Positions 45,577 to 63,779 of a stretch of 64,000 nucleotides of DNA are shown one piece after another. The notes under the pieces were generated by a model. It was not told the origin of the DNA and made no database searches. It saw nothing but the letters and a program-made list of their open reading frames with translations. The translations under genes were made by a program, and so were the position numbers. This stretch comes from Algimonas ampicilliniresistens (lineage in GTDB: Bacteria > Pseudomonadota > Alphaproteobacteria > Caulobacterales > Maricaulaceae), in assembly GCF_030159955.1 (NCBI RefSeq), contig NZ_BSNK01000002.1, forward strand, positions 558,001-622,000. The letters run 5' to 3'. How positions within the stretch are numbered: the first letter of the stretch is position 1; each line of letters begins with the position of its first letter.

Positions 45577-47142
45577 ATGGCTGAGAGTTTCATGTTGTTT
45601 GATTGGGTTGTCATCGCAGCCTATGTCGTCCTTTTAGGTGCGATGGGGTGGGTCCTGTCTCGCCGCAAATCCGCAAACTCCCGCGACTATTTCTTAGGTG
45701 GGAACACGATGCCGTTCTGGGTCGTGGCCGTGTCCGTTTTGGCGACGTCTCAATCGGCCGCCACATTTCTCGGCGGTCCGGACCAAGGGTATCGCGGGGA
45801 CTTCACCTATTTGTCGACGAATATCGGAACGATCATTGCGGCGCTATTTGTTGCCCGGATCTTGATCCCGAAATTCTACGAAAACAAAGTCACGACCGTT
45901 TATGAACTGCTCGCGATCCGGTTTAGCCCGCAAGCCATGCGCGCGGCGGGCGGCATGTATCTAATCGGTCGGATATTTGCGAGCGGGTCGCGCTTGTTCT
46001 TGGCGGCGATCGCCGTGTCGATGATCCTGTTTTCCAACATTGATGCGAACAACATCATCATCTCGGCATTTTTGATGATGGCGTTGGGTTTTCTCATCAC
46101 CTTCCTCGGTGGGATCAACTCGGTCATTTGGAGCGACCTGATCCAATTCCTGATCTACACAGCCGCCGCTGTGGCCGTGCTCTATATTTTGCGGAGCGCG
46201 ATCCCGGCCGATATGGGGCAAATATTAGAAGGTTTGAAAAATGCGCCGGACGGTCAAAATAAGCTGGTCCTGTTTGACTTTAGTTTCGATTTTTCTCGAC
46301 CCTTTGCCATGATTTCAGTGGTCACAGGACTGACCTTGCTTGGCATTGCTAGCTTCGGGATGGATCAAGATATGACCCAGCGGGTCCTGACCTGTAAGTC
46401 AGCAAAGGATGGTGGGCGCGCCTTGTTGATTTCGGCGGTCGTCGCCATTCCGGTCATCTGGGTCTTCATTTCCATCGGCCAACTTCTGCACGTTTTTTAT
46501 GAACGCCCAGACTTAATGGGCGCGGATGTGCTGTCGGCAGAAAACCGGGAATTTAGCGGTGAGAAGATCACTATCTTCATGCATTACATTTTGAACGAAC
46601 TGCCGGCGGGTATGCGCGGTCTAGTGACTGTAGGGGTTGTCGCCGCCGCGATCTCGACGATCAATTCGGGCCTCAACTCAATGTCCTCCGTGATTGTCGA
46701 GGATTTCTACCGACCGTGGAAAGAATCCAAAGGGGCAACGACGGACAAGCAGTTTGTCCGGGCCGGGCAGGTCTTTATGGGTGTGGTCGGGATCGCTTTG
46801 TTTTTGATGGCGGTGTTATGTTTCTATTGGCAGCAATATTCAGACATGCCGCTTTTGGATTTCGCGCTCTCTGTGATGGTGTTTTCTTATTCGGGTCTGT
46901 TGGGTGTTTACTTTACCGTGCTGTTTACTCGGCGCGGCTCCACGCTCTCCGTTATTTTGGCGCTGGCGGCGGGATTCCTGATTACCCTGTTGCAACAGCC
47001 CTATATCGTGGACAGCCTTGGCTTGCCGGAAGCCTGGAAAGGGCTTGCCTTTACATGGAAGCTTTGCATCGGGACGGCGGTCGCTTTCCTCGTCTGTGTG
47101 TCGGGCAATAAAAACACATTAGCCGAAAGGGCGCTGGCATGA
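45577..47142 (+). CDS. Sodium:solute symporter (SSS family)
   Basis: A 521-residue protein with about 13-14 helices and the SSS fold. Typical features are SRDYFLGGNTMPFWVVAVSV, then ATFLGGPDQGY, and AAAISTINSGLNSMSSVIVE with the Na2-site serines. A strong AAGGGGAGG site lies 7 bp before the ATG. The gene overlaps the next serine-hydrolase gene by 4 bp. SSS members carry sugars, amino acids, sialic acid or other solutes with sodium. In this setting an amino sugar, muropeptide sugar or D-amino acid is plausible but unproven. Confidence 0.88.
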   Translation: MAESFMLFDWVVIAAYVVLLGAMGWVLSRRKSANSRDYFLGGNTMPFWVVAVSVLATSQSAATFLGGPDQGYRGDFTYLSTNIGTIIAALFVARILIPKFYENKVTTVYELLAIRFSPQAMRAAGGMYLIGRIFASGSRLFLAAIAVSMILFSNIDANNIIISAFLMMALGFLITFLGGINSVIWSDLIQFLIYTAAAVAVLYILRSAIPADMGQILEGLKNAPDGQNKLVLFDFSFDFSRPFAMISVVTGLTLLGIASFGMDQDMTQRVLTCKSAKDGGRALLISAVVAIPVIWVFISIGQLLHVFYERPDLMGADVLSAENREFSGEKITIFMHYILNELPAGMRGLVTVGVVAAAISTINSGLNSMSSVIVEDFYRPWKESKGATTDKQFVRAGQVFMGVVGIALFLMAVLCFYWQQYSDMPLLDFALSVMVFSYSGLLGVYFTVLFTRRGSTLSVILALAAGFLITLLQQPYIVDSLGLPEAWKGLAFTWKLCIGTAVAFLVCVSGNKNTLAERALA

Positions 47143-48770
47143 TGACCATACGCAATTTGATGACTGGCGGCGTGATGTCGGCGGTTCTGTCTGTCGGGAT
47201 GTTAGCGACTGCGACTGCGCAAACCCAGTCTGATGTCGCTCCAGCCGCTATTGAGACTGGCTCGGAAACCCAACTGACATCAGCAGACATTCAAGCGCTC
47301 GCGACGAAAGCCTTAGATCAGTTCGATACGCCGGGCATGGCGATCGGCATCGTACATAAGGGCGACGTCACATTTGCGGGCGGGTTTGGACATAGTAACA
47401 TCGATACGGAAGCACCCGTCACGAAAGATACGCTATTCCGGATTGCCTCGACGACGAAGGCTTTCACCTCGGCGGCGCTCGCCGTGTTGGTCGATGACGG
47501 CGTGCTGCATTGGGATGATAAGGTCATCGATTATCTGCCAGATTTTCGTATGTCCGACCCTTGGGTGACGCGGGAGTTCACCATCCGTGATCTGCTAACC
47601 CATCGCAGCGGCTTGGGGCTTGGGGCCGGGGATCTGATGCTATGGCCCGAACCGTCAGGATTTTCACGCGAAGAACTGATTCATAATTTACGATATTTGA
47701 AACCCGTCAGCAGTTTTCGCAGCCGCTACGCTTACGATAATTTGCTCTATATTGTGGCCGGCGAAGTCGCGGCTGCGGCGGCAGAAACGTCTTGGGAAAA
47801 CCTTGTCCAAACTCGCATTCTCGACCCTCTGAATATGGAGTGTCACGCAGGCGAGGTTCCAGCATCTAAGCAAAACCAAACAGCCGTTCCTTATGGGCTG
47901 ATTGACGAAGAGATCGCGGAAATTACGCGTAACCGGATTGAGAACGCATCCAATGTATCTGCGGCGGCAGGGGGATTAGTTTGCAATGCTGACGGCATGA
48001 CCAAGTGGATGCTGACCCAGCTTTCCGGCGGTTTGGGGCCGAACGGCGTGCAGGTTTTCAGTGAAAAACAACGCGATGAAATGTGGAAGTCCCAAACCAT
48101 CCTGCGCGTCGGGCAATCCGAGCGGGAAATGGATGGCACGCATTTCAAGACCTACGCGCTGGGGTGGCGCAAGGAAGACATGCACGGCTATGAGGTCGTG
48201 TCGCATACCGGGACGTTGTCCGGCTATCAGGCTTTTGTCGGTCTTGTTCCTGAATTGGACCTAGGGGTCGTGATCCTCAATAATGGCTCCAATTCTGGGG
48301 CTCGATCATCCATCATGCAGACGGTTCTGAAGTCGCATATGGGTCAGCCCGACATGGATTGGGTGCAGTATTATGCGGATGCGCAGGCAGAATGGGCCGC
48401 GCGACAGGATGATGCGCCCGAAGCGAGTAATGATAATTACCAAGGCTCAGGCACAGTGACGCTGCCGATTGCAGACTATGCGGGCCTTTATGAAGACCCA
48501 TGGTTCGGCAAAGTCGATATTGCGAAGGTTGGCGACATGCTTCGTTTTCAGTCGCACAAGATGGTCAAAATGGTCGGGACGCTGACCCCGTTTGATCTCA
48601 ACACTTTCGTCATCGAATGGGATGACCCAGAGTTCAGAGCGGACGCCTATATGCGGTTCGACATGGGTTTTGACGGCGAAATATCAGGGGCGACTGTGGC
48701 CCATGTCGAGCCAGACGGCGATTGGAGTTTCAATTTTCAGGATCTGGCCTTTATCCGCGTCGACAATTAG
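47139..48770 (+). CDS. Beta-lactamase-fold serine hydrolase with C-terminal extension
   Basis: A 543-residue secreted serine hydrolase. A signal peptide ends near MLATATAQTQ. The SxxK is STTK (S104, K107, in RIASTTKAFTS). The YxN-like motif is YDN (SRYAYDNLLY), and HTGTLSGYQAFVG is the third motif. The 140-residue C-terminal region (ADYAGLYEDPWFGKVDIAKV) resembles the DUF3471/Pab87-type domain of D-amino-acid-specific peptidases. It is coupled to the SSS symporter (ATGA) and convergent, by 4 bp, with the D-aminoacylase gene. Hydrolysis of D-amino-acid peptides from cell wall is a reasonable guess. Confidence 0.87.
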   Translation: MMTIRNLMTGGVMSAVLSVGMLATATAQTQSDVAPAAIETGSETQLTSADIQALATKALDQFDTPGMAIGIVHKGDVTFAGGFGHSNIDTEAPVTKDTLFRIASTTKAFTSAALAVLVDDGVLHWDDKVIDYLPDFRMSDPWVTREFTIRDLLTHRSGLGLGAGDLMLWPEPSGFSREELIHNLRYLKPVSSFRSRYAYDNLLYIVAGEVAAAAAETSWENLVQTRILDPLNMECHAGEVPASKQNQTAVPYGLIDEEIAEITRNRIENASNVSAAAGGLVCNADGMTKWMLTQLSGGLGPNGVQVFSEKQRDEMWKSQTILRVGQSEREMDGTHFKTYALGWRKEDMHGYEVVSHTGTLSGYQAFVGLVPELDLGVVILNNGSNSGARSSIMQTVLKSHMGQPDMDWVQYYADAQAEWAARQDDAPEASNDNYQGSGTVTLPIADYAGLYEDPWFGKVDIAKVGDMLRFQSHKMVKMVGTLTPFDLNTFVIEWDDPEFRADAYMRFDMGFDGEISGATVAHVEPDGDWSFNFQDLAFIRVDN

Positions 48771-50317
48771 TCGCCGTCGGTTTTCCGCAAAGTTTTCCCA
48801 AAGACAGGCGCGCCGGACACAGCCATAATATCGGTCGGCTGGCCATTGACGATGACAGCGTCAAAGCCTGTGGGCTGCGCCATGATGTCGGACCATCCCG
48901 TATTCGCTTTGATATTGGTGGGATCAAAAACGAGAATATCGGCGGCGAGGCCAGGCTTTAAGAGCCCGCGCGTTTGTATTGAAAAGGTCTGCGCCGTCAG
49001 GCCCGACATTTTATGGATGGCTTGCTCAATCGATAAGCTCTCATCCCGAACCACATAGTCTTCGATGATTTTGGGGAAAGATCCGAAGGAGCGCGGATGG
49101 CGCATGGTCGGGCTGCCGTCCGATGAAATGGAGACGTTGGGATCGGTGACAAAGGCGTCTTGAGTGTCTTTGGTCATGATGAAGTGGGCCGTCGACGGTC
49201 CGCTATGGCCAAAATTAATAATCTGCTGTTCAGGGGTTACATCGTTGATCGCGGCGATCTCTCCCAATGTTTTTCCGGCATATTCGCCTTTTGAAATCAA
49301 GATGGCATCCGGGCCGTTCCGGCGTTCGATCTTGGCTTGCAAGAACGCTTCCAGTTCATTGCGGCGGTTTACGACGGCGTCATCAAACTCAGTTTTTCGC
49401 TTGGCCCATTCAGGGTAGAGGTAAATCAGGCTGCCATAGCTGGCCAGGTAGGGATAAACATCGGCGGTCACCGTCATGCCATCATCGCGGGCGGCTTGGA
49501 TTTGTGCCAGTACCGCATCGCCCTGCGCGCGCGTTTTGCCGTAAACCACTTTGATATGCGTGATGTTGACTCGCGCATATTGGCCTTGCTGAATGACTTC
49601 AGCGACGGATTGCTCGATCTTATCATCGTCTTCATTGCGAATATGACTCGAGATCAGACCGTCCTGAGCGCCGACGATTTTCGCCAGACCGTTCAGCTCA
49701 GCTGTGTCTGCATATCGTCCTGGCAAATATTCAAGTCCGGTGCTGAGGCCGTATGCGCCCTGTTGCAGACCTTGCAATAAAAGCGTTTCCATCGCCTCCT
49801 GTTCGCCAGGTGTCAGCGTGTCTTTTTCCCCGCCACCGGATTGCGCGCGTAAGGTCCCGTGGCCGATGAGGGCTGCGACATTGGGGCCAGAGCCTTTGGC
49901 CTCAACCGCGTCCAACCAATCTTGGATTGTTTGACCGTTTCCGGGACTAACGCCGTCCTGCCCTAAAATGACTGTCGTCACGCCTTGTCGAAGAAAGCTT
50001 TTCAGTGCGTCATTATTGTCCGCCAATGGGTTGCCGTGCGCATGGGCATCAATGAAGCCGGGCGTTACGATTTTACCAGACGCGTCGATAGTTTGGCGGG
50101 CGTCTATGCTGTCCGGATCCGTGTCGCCGATGTAAGCGATCGTGTCTCCCGCGACCAAAACGTCCGCTACAAAACTCGCTTCGCCGCTACCATCCACAAT
50201 TGTTCCGCCGTGAATATAGAGGTCGTAAATTGGCAGTCCTTCAGGTGCAGCACTCTGTTGCGAGCAGGCACAGAGTAAGGTCGCAAACCCTGCCGCCACA
50301 GAATGACGGATTGCCAT
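48767..50317 (-). CDS. N-acyl-D-amino-acid deacylase (D-aminoacylase) lipoprotein
   Basis: A 516-residue amidohydrolase. A lipoprotein signal is visible (AAGFATLLCACSQQS). Metal-binding and family motifs include GGTIVDGSGEASFVADVLVA, TPGFIDAHAHGNPLADN, HIRNEDD and NITHIKVVYG, and ISSDGSPTMRHPRSFGSFPK, the late signature of D-aminoacylases. These zinc enzymes remove acyl groups from N-acyl-D-amino acids such as N-acyl-D-Glu. Its start overlaps the NlpC/P60 stop (TAATG), making it the last gene of a four-gene leftward operon for stem-peptide processing (inference). Confidence 0.88.
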   Translation of the reverse strand: MAIRHSVAAGFATLLCACSQQSAAPEGLPIYDLYIHGGTIVDGSGEASFVADVLVAGDTIAYIGDTDPDSIDARQTIDASGKIVTPGFIDAHAHGNPLADNNDALKSFLRQGVTTVILGQDGVSPGNGQTIQDWLDAVEAKGSGPNVAALIGHGTLRAQSGGGEKDTLTPGEQEAMETLLLQGLQQGAYGLSTGLEYLPGRYADTAELNGLAKIVGAQDGLISSHIRNEDDDKIEQSVAEVIQQGQYARVNITHIKVVYGKTRAQGDAVLAQIQAARDDGMTVTADVYPYLASYGSLIYLYPEWAKRKTEFDDAVVNRRNELEAFLQAKIERRNGPDAILISKGEYAGKTLGEIAAINDVTPEQQIINFGHSGPSTAHFIMTKDTQDAFVTDPNVSISSDGSPTMRHPRSFGSFPKIIEDYVVRDESLSIEQAIHKMSGLTAQTFSIQTRGLLKPGLAADILVFDPTNIKANTGWSDIMAQPTGFDAVIVNGQPTDIMAVSGAPVFGKTLRKTDGD

Positions 50318-51741
50318 TATCGGACCGTCTTGATCGACAGAATACGGTCGACGTAAGATTCGGTCGAATTGAATTCTAACGGCAAGATCGGCGTGATGGA
50401 GACACCGTTCAGCGTACCGGAATAGAGTGTGCCATCAGGCAGTTTATAGCGCATGCCGTGGACGTCATGGATCGCAAACGGCTGTCCATCTGACTGGCCC
50501 AGCACCATTAAGACATGCCCCGGAATATAGACGAGATCACCGGGCGACGCTTGTTTTAGCCGTTCGATTTTGGCCGCTTGGTCTTCATTCTTTTTATAGC
50601 GGTCATTGATGCCGATATCTCCGTCGCGTTGGTCGCCAGAATTTCTCGGCATGACGATGCCAAAGGTGCGGTAGACTTCAGACACAAACCCCGTGCAGTC
50701 CCGACCATGATAGCGGTGTCCCCAACCATAACGTTCGCCGAGGAACTTAAAGGCTTGCTTGATGATGTTGCTCTGCGTGTAGGGCAAATATCCGACGTGG
50801 ACGTCGGCCTTCCGCTGGATCAGCGCATGTTTAAAATCGAGCGCTCCGGCGGCGTCCCGAACCGGCAATAGGACCATGTGGTTCAGATATGGGTTCTGGC
50901 CGTAGAGATTGGTGCTGAGTGCGTCCGGGCGAGAGAGCGGCACGCGAACCCCCATATCTAAAGACAGTTCTGAGACCGCCGGGACTTCGGGATTAAAAAC
51001 CGTCGACACTTTGTCCCCGGTGATCAACAGGAAGTTGTCAGCGTCGACATAGTCAAAGACACTCTCACGCGGGCCGATGGCGAGATCCGATAAGGGTGCC
51101 CAAGCGGTGTAATTATAAGATTGAATTAGGGCCCATTTCCCGTCCGCACTCTCATGCAAAACGGCGACAGCATCGCCAGGGAAAAGCGTGGATTCCTGAA
51201 ACCGCTCAATATCTCTGTCTGTTGCGTCGTGGCTAAACAGAAGATCATCGGTCGGGTATGTGCGAATGGATGTGCGCTTGACGGCTAAGGCAAAGCGCAC
51301 AGGGTTGTCGGCCGTAATCCCGTCCAAATTGAGCGACGCCTCATAGCGAGCGAAATCGGACTCTGTGACTGTTGTGCCGTCTGTGTAGATGCGGGGGTAG
51401 CCCGGTATTTTGCTGATCGATCGTATGTGGCTGAGGAGGTCTTCCCGGTTGAGCGTGTCGGACATCGCCCGAACGTCATTGAGCGTATCATCGGCTGCAA
51501 TGTTCTGCGCGTTGAAGGTCTCAATCTGAGCCGCCGTCAGGATAATTTGGTCGGCGTCCGGCTTGATCCAATAGGCGGGTGACAGATGTTTTTCTTTCAC
51601 GTCGATAACGTCCGACACAAAACTATCCTCAAAACTAAACCCGTTCTCTGCGGGTGCTGAAGGGGTGGTGGTGCAGCTAATGCAGCTCAGAGCTGCGACA
51701 GTATAAATGAGGCCGAGTGAGGTTTTCATTGAGGGGCTCAC
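50317..51741 (-). CDS. SH3-NlpC/P60 peptidase lipoprotein (YkfC-like)
   Basis: A 474-residue protein with lipoprotein-type signal (GLIYTVAALSCISCTT). The start may be the GTG at 51741, which overlaps the DUF819 stop, or the ATG at 51729. N-terminal stabilising and SH3-like segments (TSIRTYPTDDLLF, LHESADGKWALIQSYNYTAW) precede the catalytic domain. That domain has RYGWGHRYHGRDCTGFVSEV with the catalytic Cys, and PGHVLMVLG with the His. This architecture is that of gamma-D-glutamyl-diamino-acid endopeptidases such as YkfC, which cut released muropeptides. It sits between the transporter and D-aminoacylase genes. Confidence 0.88.
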   Translation of the reverse strand: MSPSMKTSLGLIYTVAALSCISCTTTPSAPAENGFSFEDSFVSDVIDVKEKHLSPAYWIKPDADQIILTAAQIETFNAQNIAADDTLNDVRAMSDTLNREDLLSHIRSISKIPGYPRIYTDGTTVTESDFARYEASLNLDGITADNPVRFALAVKRTSIRTYPTDDLLFSHDATDRDIERFQESTLFPGDAVAVLHESADGKWALIQSYNYTAWAPLSDLAIGPRESVFDYVDADNFLLITGDKVSTVFNPEVPAVSELSLDMGVRVPLSRPDALSTNLYGQNPYLNHMVLLPVRDAAGALDFKHALIQRKADVHVGYLPYTQSNIIKQAFKFLGERYGWGHRYHGRDCTGFVSEVYRTFGIVMPRNSGDQRDGDIGINDRYKKNEDQAAKIERLKQASPGDLVYIPGHVLMVLGQSDGQPFAIHDVHGMRYKLPDGTLYSGTLNGVSITPILPLEFNSTESYVDRILSIKTVR

Positions 51742-52901
51742 AGTAAGGAGGACAGAATTTTACCAACCAAAAGACCGCCGCCCGTGCCGATAATATAACC
51801 GAGCATGGCCATGAGAACCCCAATCGGAATGAGCGCGCGAGAGTAAGCGGCCGCCAAAATAGGCGCAGAGGCGACACCGCCAATATTGGCGAGCGAGGCG
51901 ACGCCGCATGAGAACAAATCTAAGCGGAAGAGTTTGGCCGCAATCACCATGATCAGGCCGTGAATACCAAGAATGATAAAGCCGGCAGCGATGAACAAAG
52001 GGGCTTGGGTGAGTTCGGCAAAATTGGCCCGCGATGCGATTAACGCAACGATGCCGTAAAGCAGAACGTTGCCGAGCTCGCTCGATCCCGCCACGCCGCC
52101 GAGGCGCGTCATCGCGCCGATGACGCCCATGACTGTCACAATCAAAACCGTCCACGTCGTTGCGGAGAAGAAGTCTGAGACAGGCAGGAATCCAGCCAGA
52201 TATTGCGCCAAGGCGGCGGCAGCGAGGCCAGCACCGATAAGGAAAGTCAGTGAGGCCGTATCGATTTTGGCGTCTGGGTTTTTCGCATTGGCTTCGATCT
52301 TGGCGCTGACTTCATCGATCAGCGCGGTGTTGCTCTTCGTCCACGCATTAAATTTCGGCGCGAGCGGCACAAAGGCGAGCAGCAACATCACCCAGATGGC
52401 GTAATCGATGGAGTCCATCAATAGGGTGTAACCCATACTGGAGTCGGGAATGCTGAGCGCCCCTTGCACGGCAACCATATTGCCTGTGCCGCCCATCCAA
52501 CTACCGCTTAGCGCGGCAAAGGTCATCCAGGCCGTGTCTGGGAGCCAGGATTTCATAATCAAAAAAGTCACAACGAAGCCAATGCCGATGCTGACGCTGG
52601 CCGTCACAAAAGCCAGGATCATCTTAGGGCCAAGCGCGGCGATTTGGCGAATGTCACCCTTTAGCAAGAGCAGGAAAATCATTGAGGGGAGCAGATTGCC
52701 CTTCACCGCGCTGTAGGTCGAATTGATGCTATCCGTCTTCGTCCAGAGACCAAAGGTAGAGAGCAGCATGATCGCAAAATACAGGATCACAATACCCGGA
52801 ATGATTTTGAAAACCCGGTATTTTTCACGGCCCTCCAAAGCCGCAATCGTGCCGCTGATCAGAAACAAGATAGCAATGTAGCTAAAGCCGGTTGTGATCA
52901 T
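51738..52901 (-). CDS. DUF819-family membrane protein
   Basis: A 387-residue polytopic protein with about 10-11 helices. The segment MTFAALSGSWMGGTGNMVAV followed by GALSIPDSSMGYTLLMDS matches DUF819 (YjcL-like) proteins, as does GVASLANIGGVASAPILAAA near the end. A central charged loop (WTKSNTALIDEVSAKIEANA) separates the two halves, as in inverted-repeat carriers. The biochemical role of the family is not settled to my knowledge. It is co-transcribed with amidase, NlpC/P60 peptidase and D-aminoacylase genes, so import of a cell-wall peptide or amino acid is the best inference. Confidence 0.85.
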   Translation of the reverse strand: MITTGFSYIAILFLISGTIAALEGREKYRVFKIIPGIVILYFAIMLLSTFGLWTKTDSINSTYSAVKGNLLPSMIFLLLLKGDIRQIAALGPKMILAFVTASVSIGIGFVVTFLIMKSWLPDTAWMTFAALSGSWMGGTGNMVAVQGALSIPDSSMGYTLLMDSIDYAIWVMLLLAFVPLAPKFNAWTKSNTALIDEVSAKIEANAKNPDAKIDTASLTFLIGAGLAAAALAQYLAGFLPVSDFFSATTWTVLIVTVMGVIGAMTRLGGVAGSSELGNVLLYGIVALIASRANFAELTQAPLFIAAGFIILGIHGLIMVIAAKLFRLDLFSCGVASLANIGGVASAPILAAAYSRALIPIGVLMAMLGYIIGTGGGLLVGKILSSLL

Positions 52902-52962: not shown

Positions 52963-53919
52963 TTATGGCGCTTGCTCATAGGAAAGCAGGTCGTCCAGTT
53001 CATTCGCGCGATATTTCTCGATCAACGCATAGAGGATCGCTACAGTTTCCGTCGACGGCTCGCCCGTGATTTCCGAGGGTCGGAAGTGAAGCTGAAACGC
53101 TTGGATCACATTGCGGGTTTGCGTGTCTAAAACGCCTGTTTTTTCGATTTTGTATCCATACGCACTCAGCGCCATTTGAACGTTTGTAATAGGAACGGGA
53201 TCGGCCAAGAATCGATTCCAATATTTAATCGCCACATCATCATCGAACCAAGCACCATAGCCGAGCTTATAAAGACGGTGCCATGGGAAGCGCGGACCGG
53301 GATCGATTTTACGATCCGGGGCGATGTCCGAATGGCCAACAATCTGTGTCGGCGTAATGCGTGGATGGCGCTTCAAAATCCCGTCAATGAGGGGAACCAA
53401 TATCTCAATTTGTGACTCCGGAAAGTCGGGGTAAAAACAAAACCGTTTGGCGGACCGGACGTTCAGGGCTGAGCTGCTCTCGGCGCTTGGTGCGTCTGCT
53501 TTGACGCAATAAGTTTGGTTGACGACTTCAATGCCAATGGAGTCATCATTGAGAGCGCTCTTCCCGTTCCAATAGCTGCGCCCGGCATGCCAAGCCCGCT
53601 CTGACTCGGGAACCAATTCATAAACTTCCAGCGTATCCTTCTTGTAGGATGTGTCACTCGGGTCAGGGACCAAGTAATGGGAGCTGACAGAGTTAGATGA
53701 GGGCTTGGTCAGGATGTTGACCGAGTCTTCAAAGTTTGCCGATGTGTGATGAATCACAAGGACGCTGACGCGGCCATTATAATTCTCGGAAGGAATGGTC
53801 TGCGTCGTTCCGGCTGTCGTACTACACGCTGCCATCAAGGGGAGCGCGAGGCAAACAAGAGCTGTTTGAGCGGCGCTTTTACAAGCCTTAAAATAGTCTC
53901 TTCGGCGCTGCGGTTGCAT
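52963..53919 (-). CDS. amiD: N-acetylmuramoyl-L-alanine amidase lipoprotein (AmiD-like)
   Basis: A 318-residue protein with lipobox LMAAC (CLALPLMAACSTT). The Amidase_2 domain has zinc-site motifs VLVIHHTSANFEDSV, ERAWHAGRSYWNG, IGIEVVNQ and QIVGHSDIAPDRKIDPGPRF. A C-terminal peptidoglycan-binding-like domain follows (ALSAYGYKIEKTGVLDTQTR). This is the AmiD layout: an outer-membrane lipoprotein cutting the amide between MurNAc and L-Ala. It opens the leftward operon, 62 bp before the DUF819 gene, and is divergent from the TonB receptor. Cytosolic AmpD lacks both the signal and the second domain. Confidence 0.88.
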   Translation of the reverse strand: MQPQRRRDYFKACKSAAQTALVCLALPLMAACSTTAGTTQTIPSENYNGRVSVLVIHHTSANFEDSVNILTKPSSNSVSSHYLVPDPSDTSYKKDTLEVYELVPESERAWHAGRSYWNGKSALNDDSIGIEVVNQTYCVKADAPSAESSSALNVRSAKRFCFYPDFPESQIEILVPLIDGILKRHPRITPTQIVGHSDIAPDRKIDPGPRFPWHRLYKLGYGAWFDDDVAIKYWNRFLADPVPITNVQMALSAYGYKIEKTGVLDTQTRNVIQAFQLHFRPSEITGEPSTETVAILYALIEKYRANELDDLLSYEQAP

Positions 53920-54100
53920 AAAACTTCATCCTAATGGGGCAAAAACGGACCAAGACGTCTCTAAAACACAATTGGCGATAGGCTCCCGGATGGTTTGAGG
54001 CAATGAAAACCTAACCAGAAAACGCAAAGTGATATTAAAGTGGTGTTACCCGACCGTCGTGTTTTCGTCAAATTATCGCCTATTATCGATAAGTTTCGCA

Positions 54101-57100: not shown

Positions 57101-57197
57101 TAATATTAACCCGTTTGAGAGCAGCAGCACATTCGGTGACCCGCGTAGTTACTTCAATCCACGCCGTTTACAGCTCTCAGCGACAGCCTCATTCTAA
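54195..57197 (+). CDS. TonB-dependent receptor with N-terminal carboxypeptidase-like domain
   Basis: A 1000-residue outer-membrane receptor. The ATG at 54195 (after GGGGAAAAG) starts a signal peptide (LVTGFVLLATLGGMSSTALA). A carboxypeptidase-regulatory-like beta domain follows (GVVAPGVTIEARSPVLPGVR through QLPLLPPGEYELTF). The plug (IGVQAINSVPVGQEYRDLQK) and a 22-strand-type barrel end in RLQLSATASF with terminal Phe. Receptors of this large, OmpA/Oar-like class take up glycans, peptides or siderophores. Location next to AmiD and the nag/mur genes points to peptidoglycan fragments or GlcNAc oligomers. A strong terminator follows. Confidence 0.88.
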   Translation: MAQRSSTSIKSNLKYKGLVTGFVLLATLGGMSSTALAQQAGAVIGTVTEASGVVAPGVTIEARSPVLPGVRTATTDENGRYQLPLLPPGEYELTFTDPDGTVTTRSVMVLLQQRINFDVEFSSGDEIIVLGQKLLVDTGSGSLKNTIGVQAINSVPVGQEYRDLQKLIPGVQYSEETIRGPSAGASGQDNGYQFDGVDVSLPLFGTLSAEPSTHDIEQVSVVRGGAKAIGFNRTAGFLINTSSKRGTNEFKGEVGYQIQSSGMTADRKQGAQVDLDREWITANVGGPILKDKLFFYGSYYRPTVTGENSSNAYGPVGDFKSVRDEFFGKLTAAPTDNLLFDVSYRTSERNGENEGIGEFEAATLGEGSDASQDIIIAEGSWIIDDKSSLSFKFTDFSFETAGGPDTLFDLTIGANDPLPVGNLGAIGRLNVPSFRTGTLTPEDIAFNTFITPIVNQFSYDPTTGGGAVGGATTINSQDFYRTNFEIAYDRTFEIGGLFHDIHIGYQHQEVEEILARTSNGYGAISVLGGDSFASDGVTPVFYQARLSQTSIQGGGGTLAPPSIDSRSILQSIEINDTIEYDKWTFDVGVMISKDILYGQGLREVSGNLSGFELAPGNEYKMYTVDWEDMIQPRLGIRYDWTDRDTVYANFAKYNAPASSLARAASWDRNLNRDIRINYDQNGNFIEIDPVRSSSGKFFQDDLKPRYTNEYLVGWDKQVNEDLTMRLHARHRYSSNFWEDTPNNARLSPFAPSEIQQLGLYIPNLADVRAEIGGSSYVIAQLDTAYTKYWEAGLEAQYSADNWYLQGSYVWSSYRGNFDQDNTSSVNDANRFIGSSSIADGVGRQPWNNKEGKLRGDRPHQLKVYGYYDLPWNGRAGFYTAWQSGQPWEAWSNLAYRPPAGGGVALLPGSPGYYFGGSSTIRYSEPAGSNRSDSHFQFDLSYTQNFEILNGKNIELRADLFNVFNTQTGYNINPFESSSTFGDPRSYFNPRRLQLSATASF

Positions 57198-57283: not shown

Positions 57284-58150
57284 TTAGCCGTGGCTGGTGA
57301 CGTTACGCGCTACCCATAAGGCTCCGTCCAACGCATCCCCCTTTGCCGGACTAAGTTTCAAACGAATATCCGGGGACATCCAAGGTTCGACACGTTGGGC
57401 CAGTCCTCCGACGAGCGTAACGCGCGGCACGTCAAACCCGAATAAGGCACGGACCATAATTTCAATATGCCAGGCGGCATGGGACGTAATCAGTCGCCCA
57501 TGATAATCACCCGCCTCGGCCGCGTTAACGACCTCGGGTGCCATCGTCGCATATTCAGTCGCTGTGGCGCTATCCATCCAATTGACGATGGCTTGGGTAT
57601 CGCGATCGAACTTCTCAAAGACCGAACGCGTGAGGTCCGAGTGCTCTAACCGTCCGTCCGATGCACGCAGTGTAATGCGGATCGCCTGAAGGCCGATATA
57701 AGCCCCGCTTCCTTCATCTGAAATTGGGAAGCCATATCCGCCAACGCGAATATCTTTTTCCTTCACACGAGCGATGCCAATGCTGCCGGTGCCGATGATG
57801 ACGATCCCCCCATCGCCGCCGGCATGCGCACCAATATTGGCGATCCGGGCATCATTGACGATTATGGTGTTCTGGAACGGGAAGGGTTGAGCCTCTAATT
57901 TCTCCAACCCACCCGGACGCCCTAGGCCGGCGACGCCCAATCCGGCCCGAATGGTCGCGACTTGATCGGATGACAGACCAGCGCTTTCAATGGCTTGCGC
58001 GTAAGCGTCTGAGATTGAGGCAAAAACCTTGGGGGTTCCCATGCGAATATTGCCCGGACCCGAAACGCCCTCGCCAATGGTCGCGCCTGTTCTATCCGTA
58101 AGCCGCGCTTTCGTTTTCGTGCCGCCAGCGTCAATTCCTAAGAAGTACAT
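57284..58150 (-). CDS. BadF/BadG-family amino-sugar kinase
   Basis: A 288-residue ASKHA kinase. The phosphate-1 motif is FLGIDAGGTKTKARLTD, the connecting motif is NDARIANIGAHAGGDGGIVI then IGTGSIG, and the adenosine motif is RVTLVGGLAQRV. This is the BadF/BcrA-type architecture shared by GlcNAc kinase, glucosamine kinase GspK and the clostridial MurK that phosphorylates both GlcNAc and MurNAc. MurQ in the same locus needs MurNAc-6-phosphate and NagA needs GlcNAc-6-phosphate. This is the only sugar kinase visible here, so it may serve both. It is divergent from the NagB-II gene. Confidence 0.85.
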   Translation of the reverse strand: MYFLGIDAGGTKTKARLTDRTGATIGEGVSGPGNIRMGTPKVFASISDAYAQAIESAGLSSDQVATIRAGLGVAGLGRPGGLEKLEAQPFPFQNTIIVNDARIANIGAHAGGDGGIVIIGTGSIGIARVKEKDIRVGGYGFPISDEGSGAYIGLQAIRITLRASDGRLEHSDLTRSVFEKFDRDTQAIVNWMDSATATEYATMAPEVVNAAEAGDYHGRLITSHAAWHIEIMVRALFGFDVPRVTLVGGLAQRVEPWMSPDIRLKLSPAKGDALDGALWVARNVTSHG

Positions 58151-58176: not shown

Positions 58177-58280
58177 ATACCATTTATCACGCAAACGACA
58201 TTTGCCGACAATGGTATTGTTATGCTCGACTGTAGAGACGCATAAATGGCTGAAACATAATGACTTGCCAAGAGTGGTAT
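58177..58280. promoter_or_regulatory. Divergent kinase/nag regulatory region with TGGTAT sites
   Basis: Between the kinase start (58150) and the NagB-II start (58324) lie ATACCAT (58177-58183), ATGGTAT (58211-58217, inverted to the first) and TGGTAT within GTGGTATTACATTGG (58275-58280). GntR/HutC regulators of NagR type bind palindromes built from TGGTAT-like halves. The GntR gene at 60536 is the natural candidate; binding is inferred. Confidence 0.5.
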
Positions 58281-58323
58281 TACATTGGCATTGATGTGTT
58301 CAAGAGGTATGCTGGTAGGTGAT

Positions 58324-59364
58324 ATGATTCACTTAATTGAAGACCAAACCGCTATGTTTAAGGAAGCTGGGAGCGCCCCAGCGAGAGTTGAAACTCAGCT
58401 CGACCTCAATCAAAATAGCCTGCACCGTCTCGGCCAAAGACTGCGCCAGAATTGCCCAAAATTTGTAATGATCTGTGCCAGAGGCAGTTCGTCCCATGCC
58501 GGCATTTACGCGCGCTATATGATTGAAACGCGACTCGGAATTCCTGTTCTGCCAGTGGCGCCGTCCCTGAGTTCAATCTTTGCCGTGAAGCAAGATTTAG
58601 ACGGCGTCTTGTTTTTAGCCATATCTCAATCTGGCCAAAGCCCGGACATTCTTTCGGCCGCACAGGCCGCAAAAAATGGCGGTGCTTTTGTTGTCGCCAT
58701 CGTCAATGATGAACATTCGCCCCTCGCCCAATTAGCGGAGATGGTTGTCCCGCTTCATGCTGAACTGGAAACCAGTGTGGCCGCCACAAAAACCTTCATT
58801 TGTACTCTGTCTGCTATCGCGCAGATGGTCGCTGAATGGGCGCAACTCGACAGTCTCACTACGGGTCTTCATAGTTTACCCGGCCAGTTAGAGGGGGCGT
58901 TTGACATGACATGGGACGAGGCGGTTGAAGCTCTAAAAGAAACGCAGTCCCTATTCACGATCAGCCGGGGCCTAGGTCTGTGCATTGCCAAAGAAGCCGC
59001 TCTTAAATTTAAAGAAACCTGCTGCCTGCACGCTGAAGCTTTTAGCGCGGCCGAAGTTCGGCATGGGCCGATCGCCCTGGTCAAAGACAACTTTCCGGTG
59101 ATTATATTTTCGACGGGGGATGAAACACAAGCGAGCATTGATGCTGTCACACAATCCGTCACATCTCGCTCGACGAAGATCTTTGTAACGGGGAGGGCCG
59201 ACAAAGGTGCGCGCTTGCTTTCCACGGTTTCAAGTGAAGTTCCAGAGCTTAGGCCCATTCTGGCGATCCAATCCTTTTACCGTTTCATCAACGCCCTGTC
59301 CCTGAGCCGTGGTCTGAACCCGGATGCGCCGGACCATCTAAAAAAAATCACAGAGACTCTGTAG
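58324..59364 (+). CDS. SIS-domain glucosamine-6-phosphate deaminase (NagB-II type)
   Basis: A 346-residue protein with two SIS sugar-phosphate domains and no glutaminase domain. It resembles the C-terminal half of GlmS and the NagB-II deaminases. Motifs are ICARGSSSHAGIYARYM, LFLAISQSGQSPDIL and LETSVAATKTFICTL. Later come LKFKETCCLHAEAFSAAEVR and HGPIALV, and the sequence closes with DAPDHLKKITETL. It would convert glucosamine-6-phosphate to fructose-6-phosphate and ammonia. The ATG at 58324 is preferred because homologues begin near there; three starts lie upstream in frame. Its TAG overlaps the GTG of nagA. Confidence 0.87.
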   Translation: MIHLIEDQTAMFKEAGSAPARVETQLDLNQNSLHRLGQRLRQNCPKFVMICARGSSSHAGIYARYMIETRLGIPVLPVAPSLSSIFAVKQDLDGVLFLAISQSGQSPDILSAAQAAKNGGAFVVAIVNDEHSPLAQLAEMVVPLHAELETSVAATKTFICTLSAIAQMVAEWAQLDSLTTGLHSLPGQLEGAFDMTWDEAVEALKETQSLFTISRGLGLCIAKEAALKFKETCCLHAEAFSAAEVRHGPIALVKDNFPVIIFSTGDETQASIDAVTQSVTSRSTKIFVTGRADKGARLLSTVSSEVPELRPILAIQSFYRFINALSLSRGLNPDAPDHLKKITETL

Positions 59365-60503
59365 TGAAGACCGCTCTGATCAACGCCAATGTCTTGACGA
59401 CAGACGGTTTCAAAGACCGACAGAGCGTATTGATCAATGCCGGGAAAATCGTCGGTATCTATGATGATGAAACATGTCCGACGGGGGCCGACACAACGCA
59501 AGATATGGGCGGCAACATGCTGCTCCCTGGGTTTCTTGACTTACAAGTGAATGGCGGTGGGGGCGTCCTATTTAACGACAGTCCAACCGTTGAGGGCATT
59601 CGCGCCATCGGCAAAGCGCACCGCGCCTTTGGTACAACGGCTTTCCTTCCAACGCTTATCAGTGATGATCATGCGGTCATGGCGGCGGCTATTGGTGCCG
59701 TTGATGCCGCTATCGCCGAAGGCGTTCCCGGCGTGGTTGGCCTTCATTTAGAGGGTCCCTTTTTGAACGCCGAGCGGCGAGGCGTGCATGATTCGTCAAA
59801 ATTCGGATCGATTGGCGAGCGTGATATCCATCTAATGTCGAGCTTGAAGCGCGGCAAAACGCTTGTGACTCTTGCCCCTGAAAAAACGACTCCAGACGCC
59901 ATCAAGTCCCTGACCGATCGTGGTGTCATCGTTGCAGCGGGCCACACACAAGCCAGCTATGATCAAACCCGAGAAGCTTTGGACGCTGGGTTGACGGGGT
60001 TTACACATTTATTCAACGCCATGAAGCCGATGCAAAGTCGAGACCCGGGAATTATTGCCGCTGCGCTCGAAGATAATCGCGCTTGGTGCGGGATTATTGC
60101 GGATGGACATCATGTGCATCCGGCTATGTTAAGATTGGCGCTCAGAGCCAAGATTGGCGAACAAATTTTTCTCGTGACAGATGCCATGCCGAGCGTTGGT
60201 TCCAAGGATAAACAGTTCTCACTGGGCGATCTTAACGTCGAGGTGGTGGACGGGAAATGTGTCACGACATCCGGGACATTAGCCGGGTCCGATTTAGACA
60301 TGCTTAGCGCGGTTCGTAACGCGCAAAACTTTCTAAATATATCCTTGGAGCGGGCCGTGGGTATGGCGAGCCGAATTCCGGCAAAGTTTATGGGGCTTGG
60401 CGATCAGATGGGGGATATCAAAGTTGGCCAGCAGGCGAACCTTGTCCTGATTAATAAAAATCTTGATGTTGAAGAGACTTGGATAAACGGCGTCTCAGCC
60501 TAA
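59364..60503 (+). CDS. nagA: N-acetylglucosamine-6-phosphate deacetylase
   Basis: A 379-residue amidohydrolase with GTG start one base into the upstream stop. Family motifs are LLPGFLDLQVNGGGGVLF, VVGLHLEGPFLNAERRGVHD, VIVAAGHTQASYDQTREALD and GFTHLFNAMKPMQSRDPG, with IIADGHHVHPAML and LVTDAMPSVG carrying the remaining metal and catalytic residues. It removes acetate from GlcNAc-6-phosphate, giving the substrate of the preceding deaminase. It is convergent with the GntR regulator 32 bp downstream. Confidence 0.93.
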   Translation: MKTALINANVLTTDGFKDRQSVLINAGKIVGIYDDETCPTGADTTQDMGGNMLLPGFLDLQVNGGGGVLFNDSPTVEGIRAIGKAHRAFGTTAFLPTLISDDHAVMAAAIGAVDAAIAEGVPGVVGLHLEGPFLNAERRGVHDSSKFGSIGERDIHLMSSLKRGKTLVTLAPEKTTPDAIKSLTDRGVIVAAGHTQASYDQTREALDAGLTGFTHLFNAMKPMQSRDPGIIAAALEDNRAWCGIIADGHHVHPAMLRLALRAKIGEQIFLVTDAMPSVGSKDKQFSLGDLNVEVVDGKCVTTSGTLAGSDLDMLSAVRNAQNFLNISLERAVGMASRIPAKFMGLGDQMGDIKVGQQANLVLINKNLDVEETWINGVSA

Positions 60504-60535: not shown

Positions 60536-61270
60536 TTAGTTGAGCTGCTTATTGCCTAGGTCCATGACAATATCATATTTATCGCCATGATAAGCGGACC
60601 GTGTTAGCTCAACAGGGGTTCCGTCTTGTAAAAAGGACCGGCGTTCAATGCGAAGGACTTCGCTAAATTCTTCGACGGCCAGCAAACCTGCTTCTGTCGG
60701 GTTCGCCAGAGACGCCCTGACTTTCTGAGTGCCTTTAACGGGACGGTTGCCCTTCATTTCCAGCGCTTGATAGAGAGACTCTTTAATGTCGTCGATGTCA
60801 GGTAAGAGTCGGGCTGGAACGACCGCATGTTCAATGGCGACCGGTTGGTTCTCAACTTGGCGAACCCGGCCAAGCCGAACGACTTTATCATCTTCCGCTA
60901 TTTGTAAGATAGCTGCCTCTTCCGTGGTGGGCGTCCCGTAGGCTTTAACGATCCAGATCGCTTGCGGGTTATGCCCCTTGGTCTGAGCGTTGCTTGTAAA
61001 TCCATTGAGACTCGATCCGAGATGTTCAATGCGTGGCAGAACATAGGTCCCAGATCCGTGTCTGCGTTCAACAACCCTATTGGCGACTAAAACATCGAGC
61101 GCTTTACGGATCGTGACGCGGGACACGCCGGTAATCTGGCACAGCTCTCGCTCAGACGGGAGGGCCTCGCCGGCTTCCGTATCGCCATTTGTGATTAAGG
61201 CCCGAATTTTCTTTGCGATTTGCAGGTAATGCGGAGTCGCAACAGATTTATCAGGGCTAATATTGATCAC
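60536..61270 (-). CDS. GntR-family (HutC/NagR-type) regulator
   Basis: A 244-residue regulator, GTG start. The winged helix occupies residues 12-80 (EALPSERELCQITGVSRVTI, RKALDVLVANRVVERRHGSG). The C-terminal UTRA ligand domain contains VKAYGTPTTEEAAILQIAED and RQVENQPVAIEHAVVPARLL, the typical start of the HutC/NagR subgroup. These sense sugar phosphates such as GlcNAc-6-phosphate. Gene order (beside nagA) makes it the repressor of the amino-sugar genes; TGGTAT-type sites near the receptor and kinase fit. Confidence 0.88.
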   Translation of the reverse strand: MINISPDKSVATPHYLQIAKKIRALITNGDTEAGEALPSERELCQITGVSRVTIRKALDVLVANRVVERRHGSGTYVLPRIEHLGSSLNGFTSNAQTKGHNPQAIWIVKAYGTPTTEEAAILQIAEDDKVVRLGRVRQVENQPVAIEHAVVPARLLPDIDDIKESLYQALEMKGNRPVKGTQKVRASLANPTEAGLLAVEEFSEVLRIERRSFLQDGTPVELTRSAYHGDKYDIVMDLGNKQLN

Positions 61271-61625: not shown

Positions 61626-62501
61626 CTACAGTTTCGCCAAGGCCTGACGTAGATTTCCGCCAACTTGATCCAACAGGGATGCGCTATCGGCAACGGTGGC
61701 GCCAGAGCAGACAAGGATAGCTTTCTTTATGTTGTTTTGGGTCTCGTGGAGGGCGGCCCTAGCGACGTCTGATGAGCAATTGGCGATCTCGCTCACCATC
61801 TTGATGGCGCGCGATTCCAGCTTGTCGTTTGACACCACCATATCGACCATAAACCCATCATAGACGCGGCCCAAGCGGATCATAATGGCTGTCGAGAGCA
61901 TATTGAGGATGATTTTCTGCGCGGTCCCAGCCTTCATTCGGGTTGATCCGGCAATAATTTCACTGCCCGTTTCCGCCAATATTGGGAATTCTGCTTCGGT
62001 GAGTAATGGCGTGTTTGGATTATTAGCGATGCCGATGGTCATCGCGCCCCGAGATTTAGCCGCTTTCAGAGCGCCGAGTGTGAACGGCGTGCGCCCACTT
62101 GCGGCCACACAGATGACAACGTCATGGTGGCCGGTATTTACCTCTTGCACCCAACGCTGACCATCTTGCGCAACGTCTTCTGCGCCCTCTTGGCTTTGTA
62201 TTAAGGCATCGATCCCGCCCGCCATACAGAATACGATCCGCTCAAACGGCCAGCTATAGGTGGGTCCTAACTCGGACCCATCAAGCACGGATAAACGCCC
62301 GGATGTCCCAGCGCCGACATAAATAAGACGCCCTGTTTCACCAAGCCGTTGCGCTGCGATTTCGGCCGCTTTGGCAATATCATCTACGGCGGGCTGAACA
62401 GCTTTAAGGGCGTCGACTTGACCTTCATACATAGCCGCGACCGCGTCTCGAACGGGCCACACATCCAGACCCGAGTATTTCTCGTTGATCTCTTCTGTCA
62501 T
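61626..62501 (-). CDS. murQ: N-acetylmuramic acid 6-phosphate etherase
   Basis: A 291-residue SIS-domain lyase. Motifs typical of MurQ are LIYVGAGTSGRLSVLDGSEL then GPTYSWP (with the catalytic Glu), VNTGHHDVVICVAASGRTPF, and GSEIIAGSTRMKAGTAQKII then LNMLSTA. It splits the lactyl ether of MurNAc-6-phosphate to GlcNAc-6-phosphate plus D-lactate, feeding NagA. It follows the namZ gene by 48 bp on the same strand, so the two form an operon: free MurNAc made outside, its phosphate cleaved inside. Confidence 0.94.
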   Translation of the reverse strand: MTEEINEKYSGLDVWPVRDAVAAMYEGQVDALKAVQPAVDDIAKAAEIAAQRLGETGRLIYVGAGTSGRLSVLDGSELGPTYSWPFERIVFCMAGGIDALIQSQEGAEDVAQDGQRWVQEVNTGHHDVVICVAASGRTPFTLGALKAAKSRGAMTIGIANNPNTPLLTEAEFPILAETGSEIIAGSTRMKAGTAQKIILNMLSTAIMIRLGRVYDGFMVDMVVSNDKLESRAIKMVSEIANCSSDVARAALHETQNNIKKAILVCSGATVADSASLLDQVGGNLRQALAKL

Positions 62502-62549: not shown

Positions 62550-63779
62550 TTATTTATAGATGAGGTATTTTTCTCTCACGGTCTGAAATTGCGTGAGGTC
62601 AGCTTGCCAGCTTAGTTTAATATCATCGGCGCTCAGGCCGGCCTTAATCTGTGTCATCAACACATCATTGCCAGCGAGCTTATGAAAGAAATTATTGGCC
62701 AGAAAAAAAGTCTCTTTGTCTGGAAGTTGGGCATAAAAATCAATGATCCAGTCCAATGAGAGCTGCGCATCAAGCGGGGCGCTGGATGAATCATGCTTGC
62801 GTAAATCGAGGCCATAGCAGAGCTGACCGTTCAGTTTTGGCGACATCGCACCGGATACGGGGCGGGGCGTGAAAGAGAATTCTGCATTCGGATAATCAGG
62901 GTGACCGACAATTTGAAACGGTACGTCTGTACCGCGGCCAATACTAACGGTCGTGCCCTCAAACAGCGCCAAGGATGGGTATAAATAGACCGCGTCCATG
63001 TTGGGCAAGTTGGGCGAAGGTTTGATCGGTAAACTATAGGGCGTGTCGTGCGAATAGTTTTCGAGTTCAATAATAGTGAGATCGCACTGGACGCCTTTAT
63101 CTAACCACCCTTCGCCATTGATCATCTGAGCATACTCGCCAATCGTCATGCCATAAACTAATGGGACTGGATGAAGCCCGATAAATGACGAATATTCAGG
63201 CTTTAAAACGGGTCCGTCGACATAATGAGCATTAGGGTTGGGTCGGTCGAACACGATCAGGGGCGTGTCAGTCTCGGCGCAAGATTCCATCACATAATGG
63301 AGCGTGCTCAAATAGGTATAAAACCGCACGCCAACATCTTGGAGGTCAAAGACCATGACGTCCACATCGCTTAAGAGCTCAGGCGTCGGTTTTTTGTTGG
63401 TGCCATAGAGTGAGATGATCGGCAGGCCGGTCTTGGTATCGATTTCATTATCGATGGTTTCACCCGCATCTTTTAGCCCGCGAAACCCATGTTCAGGCAC
63501 GAAGATTTTGCGAATGACGACATCGTCCTCTAGCAGCGCATCAACTAAATGTTGGTCGCCCGCAACGGAGGTTGCATTGGCGACAACCGCAATGGATTGG
63601 CCAGATAGTAAGGGCAGATAGATGTCTGACCGCTCAGCGCCGACCAGAATTTTCTGTGTTGTCAGATTAACCCCGACGCTTTCGGGTGTCGCTGATGGCG
63701 CGTTCTGTCTGATGTCTGACTGACAGCCGAGAAGACAAAAGCTGAGTATGAAGAGTGGTATGATTTTCGAAAAATACAT
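62550..63779 (-). CDS. namZ: Exo-beta-N-acetylmuramidase NamZ (DUF1343) lipoprotein
   Basis: A 409-residue lipoprotein (signal PLFILSFCLLGCQSD, lipobox LLGC). The DUF1343 core is unmistakable: SIAVVANATSVAGDQHLVDA, KIFVPEHGFRGLKDAGETID, LPIISLYGTNKKPTPE, VMVFDLQDVGVRFYTYLSTL, and IVFDRPNPNAHYVDGP. NamZ of Bacillus subtilis is an exo-lytic beta-N-acetylmuramidase (GH171) that releases MurNAc from non-reducing ends. Here it is cell-envelope anchored and transcribed before murQ. It would act on chains opened by AmiD and endogenous or foreign muramidases. Confidence 0.92.
   Translation of the reverse strand: MYFSKIIPLFILSFCLLGCQSDIRQNAPSATPESVGVNLTTQKILVGAERSDIYLPLLSGQSIAVVANATSVAGDQHLVDALLEDDVVIRKIFVPEHGFRGLKDAGETIDNEIDTKTGLPIISLYGTNKKPTPELLSDVDVMVFDLQDVGVRFYTYLSTLHYVMESCAETDTPLIVFDRPNPNAHYVDGPVLKPEYSSFIGLHPVPLVYGMTIGEYAQMINGEGWLDKGVQCDLTIIELENYSHDTPYSLPIKPSPNLPNMDAVYLYPSLALFEGTTVSIGRGTDVPFQIVGHPDYPNAEFSFTPRPVSGAMSPKLNGQLCYGLDLRKHDSSSAPLDAQLSLDWIIDFYAQLPDKETFFLANNFFHKLAGNDVLMTQIKAGLSADDIKLSWQADLTQFQTVREKYLIYK

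Follow-up and report, generated by a model that had tools for sequence, protein, structure and literature searches.

The stretch of 64,000 nucleotides of Algimonas ampicilliniresistens analysed here (G000:C2:558001-622000, referred to as the window; labels G### denote genomes, L### fetched stretches, and G000 is the window's own genome) carries between positions 45577 and 63779 what is probably a conserved catabolic locus for fragments of murein, which most likely come from outside the cell. The substrates of its transporters, a kinase activity on N-acetylmuramic acid (MurNAc) and the external origin of the substrate are what we infer from the sequence; that a sugar branch and a peptide branch are co-conserved in the locus is supported by the comparison of genomes. 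All 13 open reading frames (ORFs) which a preliminary description had named in this region were confirmed at their positions. Scanning 15 proteins of the locus and its neighbours against Pfam with curated cut-offs, and against NCBIfam models with the models' own cut-offs, agreed with nearly all of the family names given there.

The gene order is kept in three further genomes of the window's family: SSS symporter and serine hydrolase genes, followed by amiD-DUF819-nlpC with or without an amidohydrolase gene, a receptor gene, a kinase gene, nagB2-nagA and gntR-murQ-namZ. G035 contains the entire locus, G019 lacks only the amidohydrolase gene, and G018, which belongs to the same genus, lacks the amidohydrolase and kinase genes and has a fragmentary namZ (L024:732-1152, L230); a search of the complete G018 genome gave no homologue of the kinase. 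Part of the locus is present in two Robiginitomaculum metagenome-assembled genomes (L034 and L035), arranged up to the end of the stretch as namZ-murQ-FAD oxidase-gntR-nagA-nagB2-kinase-sulfotransferase-receptor. Full-length MurQ (>250 bits) occurs in four of the 37 genomes of the window's family, its own included, and these are exactly the four genomes with the locus; the kinase is found in three of the 37, every one with the locus. Elsewhere in the order, five of 24 other genomes searched contain MurQ above 250 bits. The NamZ_N domain was detected in 15 of 61 genomes. In a class-wide draw NamZ was found at E ≤1e-20 in 26 of 385 genomes including the window's, of which only the latter exceeds 41% identity, and the NamZ proteins adjoining murQ in six genomes of another class are 43-51% identical to that of the window. 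Orthologues of the GntR regulator are 71-85% identical in five alphaproteobacterial loci (56% beside murQ in L037), those of the receptor 59-63% in five such loci (50% near the cluster of G343), and those of the serine hydrolase 65-73% in three relatives. The ordered conservation across genera exceeds chance.

The SSS-family Na+ symporter (45577..47142, plus strand; PF00474, SSF) may be the importer of MurNAc, being MurT-like by context. Its nearest solved chain is 5nv9, which we take to be the sialic-acid symporter SiaT. Homologues at E ≤1e-100 are present in 16 of 398 genomes of the phylum including the window's, and the stretches around all 15 others were checked by tblastn. MurQ lies within 4 kb of the symporter gene in 11 of these 15 genomes, NamZ in eight and either of the two in 12; with stretches of 16 kb and a genome of 4 Mb, the chance of meeting one given gene is approximately 0.4% each. 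Further neighbours are a BadF kinase (nine of 15), AmiD (four), NlpC and DUF819 (two each); neither MurQ nor NamZ was found in the SSS stretches of G039, G248 and G043. In the Woeseiaceae stretch L037 and in G059 (L094) the symporter is located near MurQ and a GntR homologue. The co-occurrence of the genes in relatives, proposed in the preliminary description as a check on its reading of the cluster as a murein-fragment locus, is borne out by the recurring order, the confinement of MurQ within the family to the locus genomes and the pairing of SSS with MurQ or NamZ. The idea that MurQ-linked SSS carriers form one clade split from the unlinked ones was rejected, as the corrected tree shows no single clade. 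An arrangement reminiscent of the window's SSS-hydrolase pair occurs in two same-class genomes (L239 and L243), where the SSS gene is directly followed by a NamZ gene with 31-36% identity and then by a hydrolase of the beta-lactamase fold.

MurQ (61626..62501, minus strand; GKRP_SIS_N and SIS) lies just below the cut-off of TIGR00274 and above those of NF003915 and NF009222, and by the latter two classes as the MurNAc-6-P etherase of the MurTKQ pathway. NamZ (62550..63779, minus strand) contains both domains of the NamZ exo-N-acetylmuramidases (PF07075 and PF20732, NamZ_N and NamZ_C), its nearest solved structure being 4jja (E 8e-117); no NCBIfam model matched it at 1e-10. A NamZ tree, from which the broken NamZ of G018 and those of G244 and G256 (31% and 36%) were left out, did not cleanly unite the MurQ-linked NamZ proteins in one clade (two changes), with G181 standing separately and L145 on a very long branch. 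The genes for the NagB-II glucosamine-6-P deaminase (58285..59364, plus strand; PF01380, SIS) and the N-acetylglucosamine (GlcNAc)-6-P deacetylase NagA (59364..60503, plus strand; Amidohydro_1) overlap by 1 bp. NagA exceeds the cut-off of TIGR00221 and falls below that of NF008371, and the best NCBIfam match of NagB-II is NagB_SO3506 with 354 bits versus a cut-off of 430. A strongly hydrophobic N-terminal segment was found in none of MurQ, NagA, NagB-II and the kinase. In a different family of the order, MurQ adjoins a protein of approximately 700 aa with a GH3 match (L096, L097 and L098; in G039 and G047 a family search showed the match), and these stretches gave no NamZ match.

The BadF-type kinase (57284..58150, minus strand; PF01869, BcrAD_BadFG) is NagK-like and possibly acts on both GlcNAc and MurNAc. 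Its best NCBIfam match is NagK_SO3507 with 248 bits versus a cut-off of 370, and among solved structures it matches 1zc6 and 8zo3, the latter named a MurNAc/GlcNAc kinase; MurK structures were matched only at E 0.1. The loop of the sugar pocket reads GGYG, and its glycine aligns with G145 of human NagK (position according to PMC10465942), which leaves space for a lactyl group, as is the case in 8zo3; since all aligned kinases share this glycine, it does not discriminate a MurNAc kinase. The three locus kinases score 243-253 bits with the NagK model and four MurQ-adjacent kinases 108-130, with those of G271 and L036, also near murQ, reaching 204 and 221. Window-type kinases do lie near murQ in L036 and G244. 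The joint loss of the kinase and of an intact namZ in G018 fits a kinase acting on the product of NamZ, in this one case. BadF kinases fused to MurQ occur in G251, G316 and G181 (L238:5790-7637, L231:5641-7494 and L245:8611-10491); the view that they prove MurNAc to be a substrate of the window kinase was rejected, as the fused kinases belong to another clade. FAD-linked oxidases in the clusters of L034, G251 and G343 would fit D-lactate, since this is the by-product of MurQ. The idea that the oxidase of L034 points to a D-lactate dehydrogenase tied to the locus in G000 proved unspecific, a homologue with 33-46% identity being present in all ten genomes searched.

The peptide branch is mainly encoded by a run of four genes on the minus strand, amiD, DUF819, nlpC and the amidohydrolase gene, which are separated by a 61-bp gap and then joined by overlaps of 4 bp and 1 bp. 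AmiD (52963..53919; PF01510, PF01471) is an AmiD/AmpDh-type N-acetylmuramoyl-L-alanine amidase with a peptidoglycan-binding domain, whose solved neighbours are AmpDh3 (E 6.7e-55), AmpDh2 and AmiD. The NlpC protein (50317..51741; PF12913, SH3_6, and PF00877, NlpC/P60) combines an SH3b domain with an NlpC/P60 domain and is a relative of solved gamma-D-Glu-diamino acid endopeptidases (3m1u, named a putative gamma-D-glutamyl-L-diamino acid endopeptidase), which places it with the YkfC-type endopeptidases. The accessory amidohydrolase (48767..50317; PF07969, Amidohydro_3) resembles D-aminoacylases and N-acyl-D-glutamate deacylases, with 3gip, an N-acyl-D-glutamate deacylase, as solved neighbour (E 1.4e-60); it is present in G035 and missing from the loci of G019 and G018. 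A replacement of the dipeptide epimerase by this D-aminoacylase-like enzyme was rejected, as MR_MLE genes were found whether the amidohydrolase is present (G000 and G035) or absent (G018 and G019); the only such enzyme classified, that of G000, has DgcA as best model, below the cut-off. Window NamZ, AmiD and the amidohydrolase each carry a lipobox, and the window NlpC a near-lipobox, which is complete in G019 and G018; the strict pattern was found in none of G035 NamZ, G035 NlpC and G018 AmiD.

Two further proteins are predicted to act outside the cytoplasm. The secreted serine hydrolase (47139..48770, plus strand; PF00144 and PF11954, DUF3471), whose gene overlaps that of the SSS symporter by 4 bp, has a signal-like N-terminus and the fold of class C beta-lactamases and DD-peptidases. 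The earlier name of DD-peptidase-like hydrolase holds for this fold and no further, as the NCBIfam models among the matches listed (those for AmpH, D-aminopeptidase and class C beta-lactamase) all lie far under their cut-offs. The receptor (54111..57197, plus strand, with a mechanically assigned start codon) combines an outer-membrane barrel (PF25183, OMP_b-brl_4) with a CarboxypepD_reg domain (PF13620). It had been labelled a TonB-dependent receptor; Pfam detected no Plug domain at 1e-3, so that of this label the barrel remains and the protein is better termed Oar-like.

The DUF819 carrier (51738..52901, minus strand; PF05684) is the candidate importer of murein peptides, L-Ala-D-Glu or similar. 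Its predicted model (pLDDT 84) matches the CitS Na+/citrate symporters with TM scores by query length of 0.52-0.65 and root mean square deviations of 5.7-8.5, and by Pfam family and CitS-like predicted fold it falls among the DUF819/CPA-AT carriers. The CitS fold is of the elevator type and serves small anions. A DUF819 survey covered 26 phylum stretches, representing 27 of 41 places above the cut-off, and in addition 15 stretches around all non-locus DUF819 genes of another search. Carriers at least 40% identical to that of the window were found in four stretches (L174, L184, L187 and L188); three of these show the arrangement DUF819-NlpC-MR_MLE epimerase, and in one the gene is located near MurQ-SSS-NamZ. 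The DUF819 tree unites the carriers of the locus with L174, L184 and L187 (99/98), L188 being outside the tree sample. In the 37 stretches with more distant DUF819 genes (22 and 15), no match to NlpC or MurQ was found at E 1e-8. In L172, L173 and L177 other DUF819 genes adjoin either a gene with Transglut_core2 and TPR_9 or a DAHP_synth_1 gene. The clan placement of DUF819 among the CPA-AT carriers has been described (PMC8396727), and an M15 peptidase gene is reported beside DUF819 in Neisseria (PMC12671195). With racemase, M20 and MR_MLE genes lying beside further members of the family, this hints at a wider link of DUF819 to peptides or D-amino acids; the DAHP_synth_1/Transglut_core2 context gives no such hint.

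Both branches are joined in one contiguous stretch of G343, a genome of the same phylum and, as with all genomes so tagged, of another class than the window's, probably the gammaproteobacteria. It reads DUF819-NlpC-epimerase-SSS-kinase-MurQ-NamZ. An RpiR regulator, a FAD/Fe-S oxidase, GH3 and two genes resembling receptors come next; one of these two is 50% identical to the window receptor by tblastn, though without a Pfam match at 1e-5. We tentatively suggest that the DUF819 clade of the locus is an inner-membrane Na+ symporter for pieces of the murein stem peptide (L-Ala-D-Glu or a close product), which would provide the import step so far missing when proteobacteria use murein peptides and, with the MurT-like SSS carrier, would make up a two-symporter route needing neither AmpG nor a phosphotransferase system (PTS), although somewhat less than even weight should be given to this proposal.

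The GntR/UTRA regulator (60536..61270, minus strand; PF00392, PF07702) is a candidate NagQ. Intergenic regions of the loci share the direct repeat TGGTATT-N4-TGGTATT, a consensus learned from these loci and evaluated against dinucleotide shuffles. The box in the divergent kinase/nagB2 promoter (58275..58292, plus strand) has one mismatch, and none of 1000 shuffles of this gap, taken to 58326, was as good; since the listed TTG of nagB2 sits inside the box, the gene probably starts at a downstream in-frame ATG. The box in the divergent amiD/receptor promoter (54030..54047, plus strand) has two mismatches, with one of 200 shuffles as good. Corresponding boxes were found in G035 at both divergent promoters (0 and 1 mismatches), in NORP13 and NORP39 (one each) and in G019 on the amiD side (two) and, more weakly and in part, on the kinase side (three; 2.5% of shuffles). 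Matches in ten further intergenic regions had 4-6 mismatches, none of them unusual. A palindromic operator shared by the loci was rejected, as the apparent palindromes of an expectation-maximisation run resolved into direct repeats. The published NagQ consensus presumably resembles the TGGTATT box. NagQ governs GlcNAc use in alpha- and betaproteobacteria, and its published sites are tandem repeats (PMC5343134), which lends the boxes independent support. With a tandem-repeat operator upstream of the nag genes, albeit one whose consensus comes partly circularly from the same loci, the locus resembles a NagQ regulon, and the boxes suggest that the kinase gene, nagB2A, the receptor gene and the amiD-DUF819-nlpC operon belong to a single GlcNAc-type regulon.

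Several findings weigh against the reading as a murein-catabolic locus. Within the family the locus is patchy (four of 37 genomes by MurQ). No box was found at the SSS, NamZ and GntR/MurQ promoters, so that SSS, namZ and murQ are not placed in the regulon; the boxes of G018 are weak (three mismatches in the receptor/nagB2 gap, 3% of shuffles, and four on the amiD side, 15.5%); one further match, the sole extra one at ≤2 mismatches and the same spacing, lies outside the locus inside an ORF at 21458; and the significance of the boxes is partly circular, the consensus being derived from these loci. MurQ and an SSS homologue are both present but apart in G039 and G043, and in the trees the window kinase does not group with the kinases fused or adjacent to MurQ. 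A role of DUF819 as murein carrier throughout the family was rejected, the commonest neighbours being DAHP_synth_1 (seven), Transglut_core2 (six) and TPR_9 (six) among the 63 of 99 listed neighbour proteins scanned, from which those above 900 aa had been dropped. The preliminary description had called the cluster a complete outside-to-inside route; this could not be upheld, as endolytic muramidases and transglycosylases, secreted exo-N-acetylglucosaminidases and dipeptide epimerases are all absent from the scanned locus proteins, and the kinase is of the NagK type. The clusters of G251 and G343, unlike the window locus, hold GH3 proteins. That NamZ is used with neither NagZ nor AnmK is true of the window and fails genome-wide, where a NagZ-type enzyme of 336 aa over the NCBIfam cut-off (G000:C1:1040166), AnmK (G000:C1:1137205) and AmpG over its cut-off (G000:C2:793201) are encoded outside the locus, so that the cell could recycle its own wall without it.

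The locus might itself serve such recycling, with MurQ diverting AnmK-made MurNAc-6-P to catabolism, AmiD and NlpC clearing periplasmic turnover and import of foreign murein being minor. The recycling genes elsewhere in the genome favour this, as does the retention of murQ, nagA, nagB2 and the peptide genes in G018 in spite of its broken namZ and absent kinase. We consider it unlikely all the same, for MurQ is missing in 33 of the 37 family genomes, an outer-membrane receptor and a MurNAc-type symporter would be superfluous for cytosolic recycling, and NamZ is a predicted lipoprotein. AnmK is present in 31 of 37 genomes searched, a set that includes the window's and draws 23 genomes from the family and 14 from the order, and in 17 of the 20 family genomes of this set without the locus; with AnmK so common where MurQ is missing, recycling presumably proceeds without the locus. 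Caulobacter, which like the window genome has NagZ, AnmK and AmpG but is described as having no MurQ, returns anhydro-MurNAc to UDP-MurNAc via MurU (PMC13046382), and MurQ of the locus therefore looks like an addition. Rather improbable is a GlcNAc or chitin locus into which murein genes have drifted, with GlcNAc oligomers as main substrate. Its nagA and nagB genes are indeed the core of published NagQ regulons, some of them with a kinase and chitin genes (PMC5343134), and the box is common to the kinase, nagBA and receptor genes; yet the proteins scanned contain no chitinase or hexosaminidase domain, a boxed divergent promoter is also shared by amiD, DUF819, nlpC and the receptor gene, and namZ and murQ adjoin the regulator gene in the alphaproteobacterial loci holding them, with a FAD oxidase gene in between in two. 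A chance neighbourhood of unrelated hydrolases and carriers, each family being common by itself, is refuted by the ordered conservation across genera and by the same pairs recurring in other lineages, and its probability is negligible.

For a locus degrading murein fragments, the following route can be proposed. The Oar-like receptor would admit the fragments, which the lipoproteins (three with a lipobox, NlpC with a near-lipobox) would process at the surface or in the periplasm. AmiD would cleave the stem peptide off MurNAc, NlpC/P60 would cleave L-Ala-D-Glu off the diamino acid, NamZ would free MurNAc from non-reducing ends, and the accessory amidohydrolase may cleave N-acyl-D-Glu bonds. MurNAc would then be imported by the SSS symporter and the small peptide, L-Ala-D-Glu or its products, by the DUF819 symporter. 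Inside the cell the kinase would phosphorylate GlcNAc and perhaps MurNAc, and MurNAc-6-P would be converted to fructose-6-P by MurQ, NagA and NagB-II with release of D-lactate, acetate and ammonia; AnmK, encoded outside the locus, would be a second source of MurNAc-6-P for MurQ. The NagQ-like GntR protein may sense an amino-sugar phosphate and derepress the receptor, peptide, kinase and nagBA genes.

Parts of this route are known from other bacteria. Bacillus subtilis combines NamZ with NagZ, the amidase AmiE and MurQ, and its ykfABCD genes include the endopeptidase YkfC for L-Ala-D-Glu; it differs in having separate loci, the PTS transporter MurP, a secreted NagZ and the epimerase YkfB beside YkfC. 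YbbC of Tannerella forsythia is presumably a NamZ. The closest known system is the ybbC-murTKQ/ampG operon of Tannerella, in which YbbC, the MurNAc transporter MurT, the kinase MurK and the etherase MurQ are encoded in one transcription unit and external murein is scavenged (PMC5388701, PMC5790795, PMC7670621). MurT, assigned once to the sodium symporter superfamily and elsewhere to the major facilitators, is reported to enable, together with MurK, the growth of an E. coli murP mutant on MurNAc (PMC5790795). Tannerella differs in belonging to the Bacteroidetes, in its hybrid two-component regulator GppX and in having ampG inside the operon, and its nine genes as published include no NlpC, DUF819, NagA or NagB, unlike the window locus. 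Among the matches listed in a search of titles and the beginnings of abstracts, with most subscription literature outside its reach, only the Tannerella work concerned dedicated murein-use loci, and none described such a locus in proteobacteria; nor did passages from some of the papers listed give a function for the DUF819 family. The NagQ regulons share with the window a GntR regulator, a tandem-repeat operator and a nagA/nagB core; the published cores comprise a PTS transporter and often chitin genes (PMC5343134), whereas the boxed promoters of the window also drive the amidase, NlpC/P60, DUF819 and outer-membrane receptor genes. The locus works like that of Tannerella and is PUL-like, which leaves the earlier analogy with a polysaccharide utilisation locus (PUL) intact in the loose sense; in the strict SusC/SusD sense it does not hold, as a SusD domain was found in none of the 15 proteins scanned and the receptor is Oar-like.

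The locus is adjoined by the genes of a TPR-sulfotransferase (43840..45393, minus strand; PF13469) and a second serine hydrolase of the beta-lactamase fold (42621..43838), which lie next to it also in G035, G019 and G018; in L034 and L035 the sulfotransferase gene is located inside the locus, between kinase and receptor. Between the genes of receptor and kinase (57221-57251), reading of the sequence revealed a GC-rich hairpin with a run of T after it, which is probably a terminator. Elsewhere in the window it showed a repetitive ORF of 2403 aa (31199-38410), resembling by eye a surface protein with Ig repeats and a barrel at the C-terminus, as well as an ORF similar by eye to a DDE transposase (5393-6142). 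Rfam at the gathering threshold and tRNA scans gave no matches in the 64-kb window.

The bacterial cell wall is an abundant food source. In this locus catabolic use of murein via MurQ is set apart from the MurU recycling known in Caulobacter, and, unlike in the Tannerella pathway, the murein sugar route comes together with a branch for cell-wall peptides whose transporter is uncharacterised. The boxed promoters suggest that a GlcNAc-type regulon has been extended to murein peptides. The locus offers testable functions for a group of SSS carriers and for the DUF819 clade, and transport of stem peptides by the latter would, if true, represent the first function for the DUF819 family.

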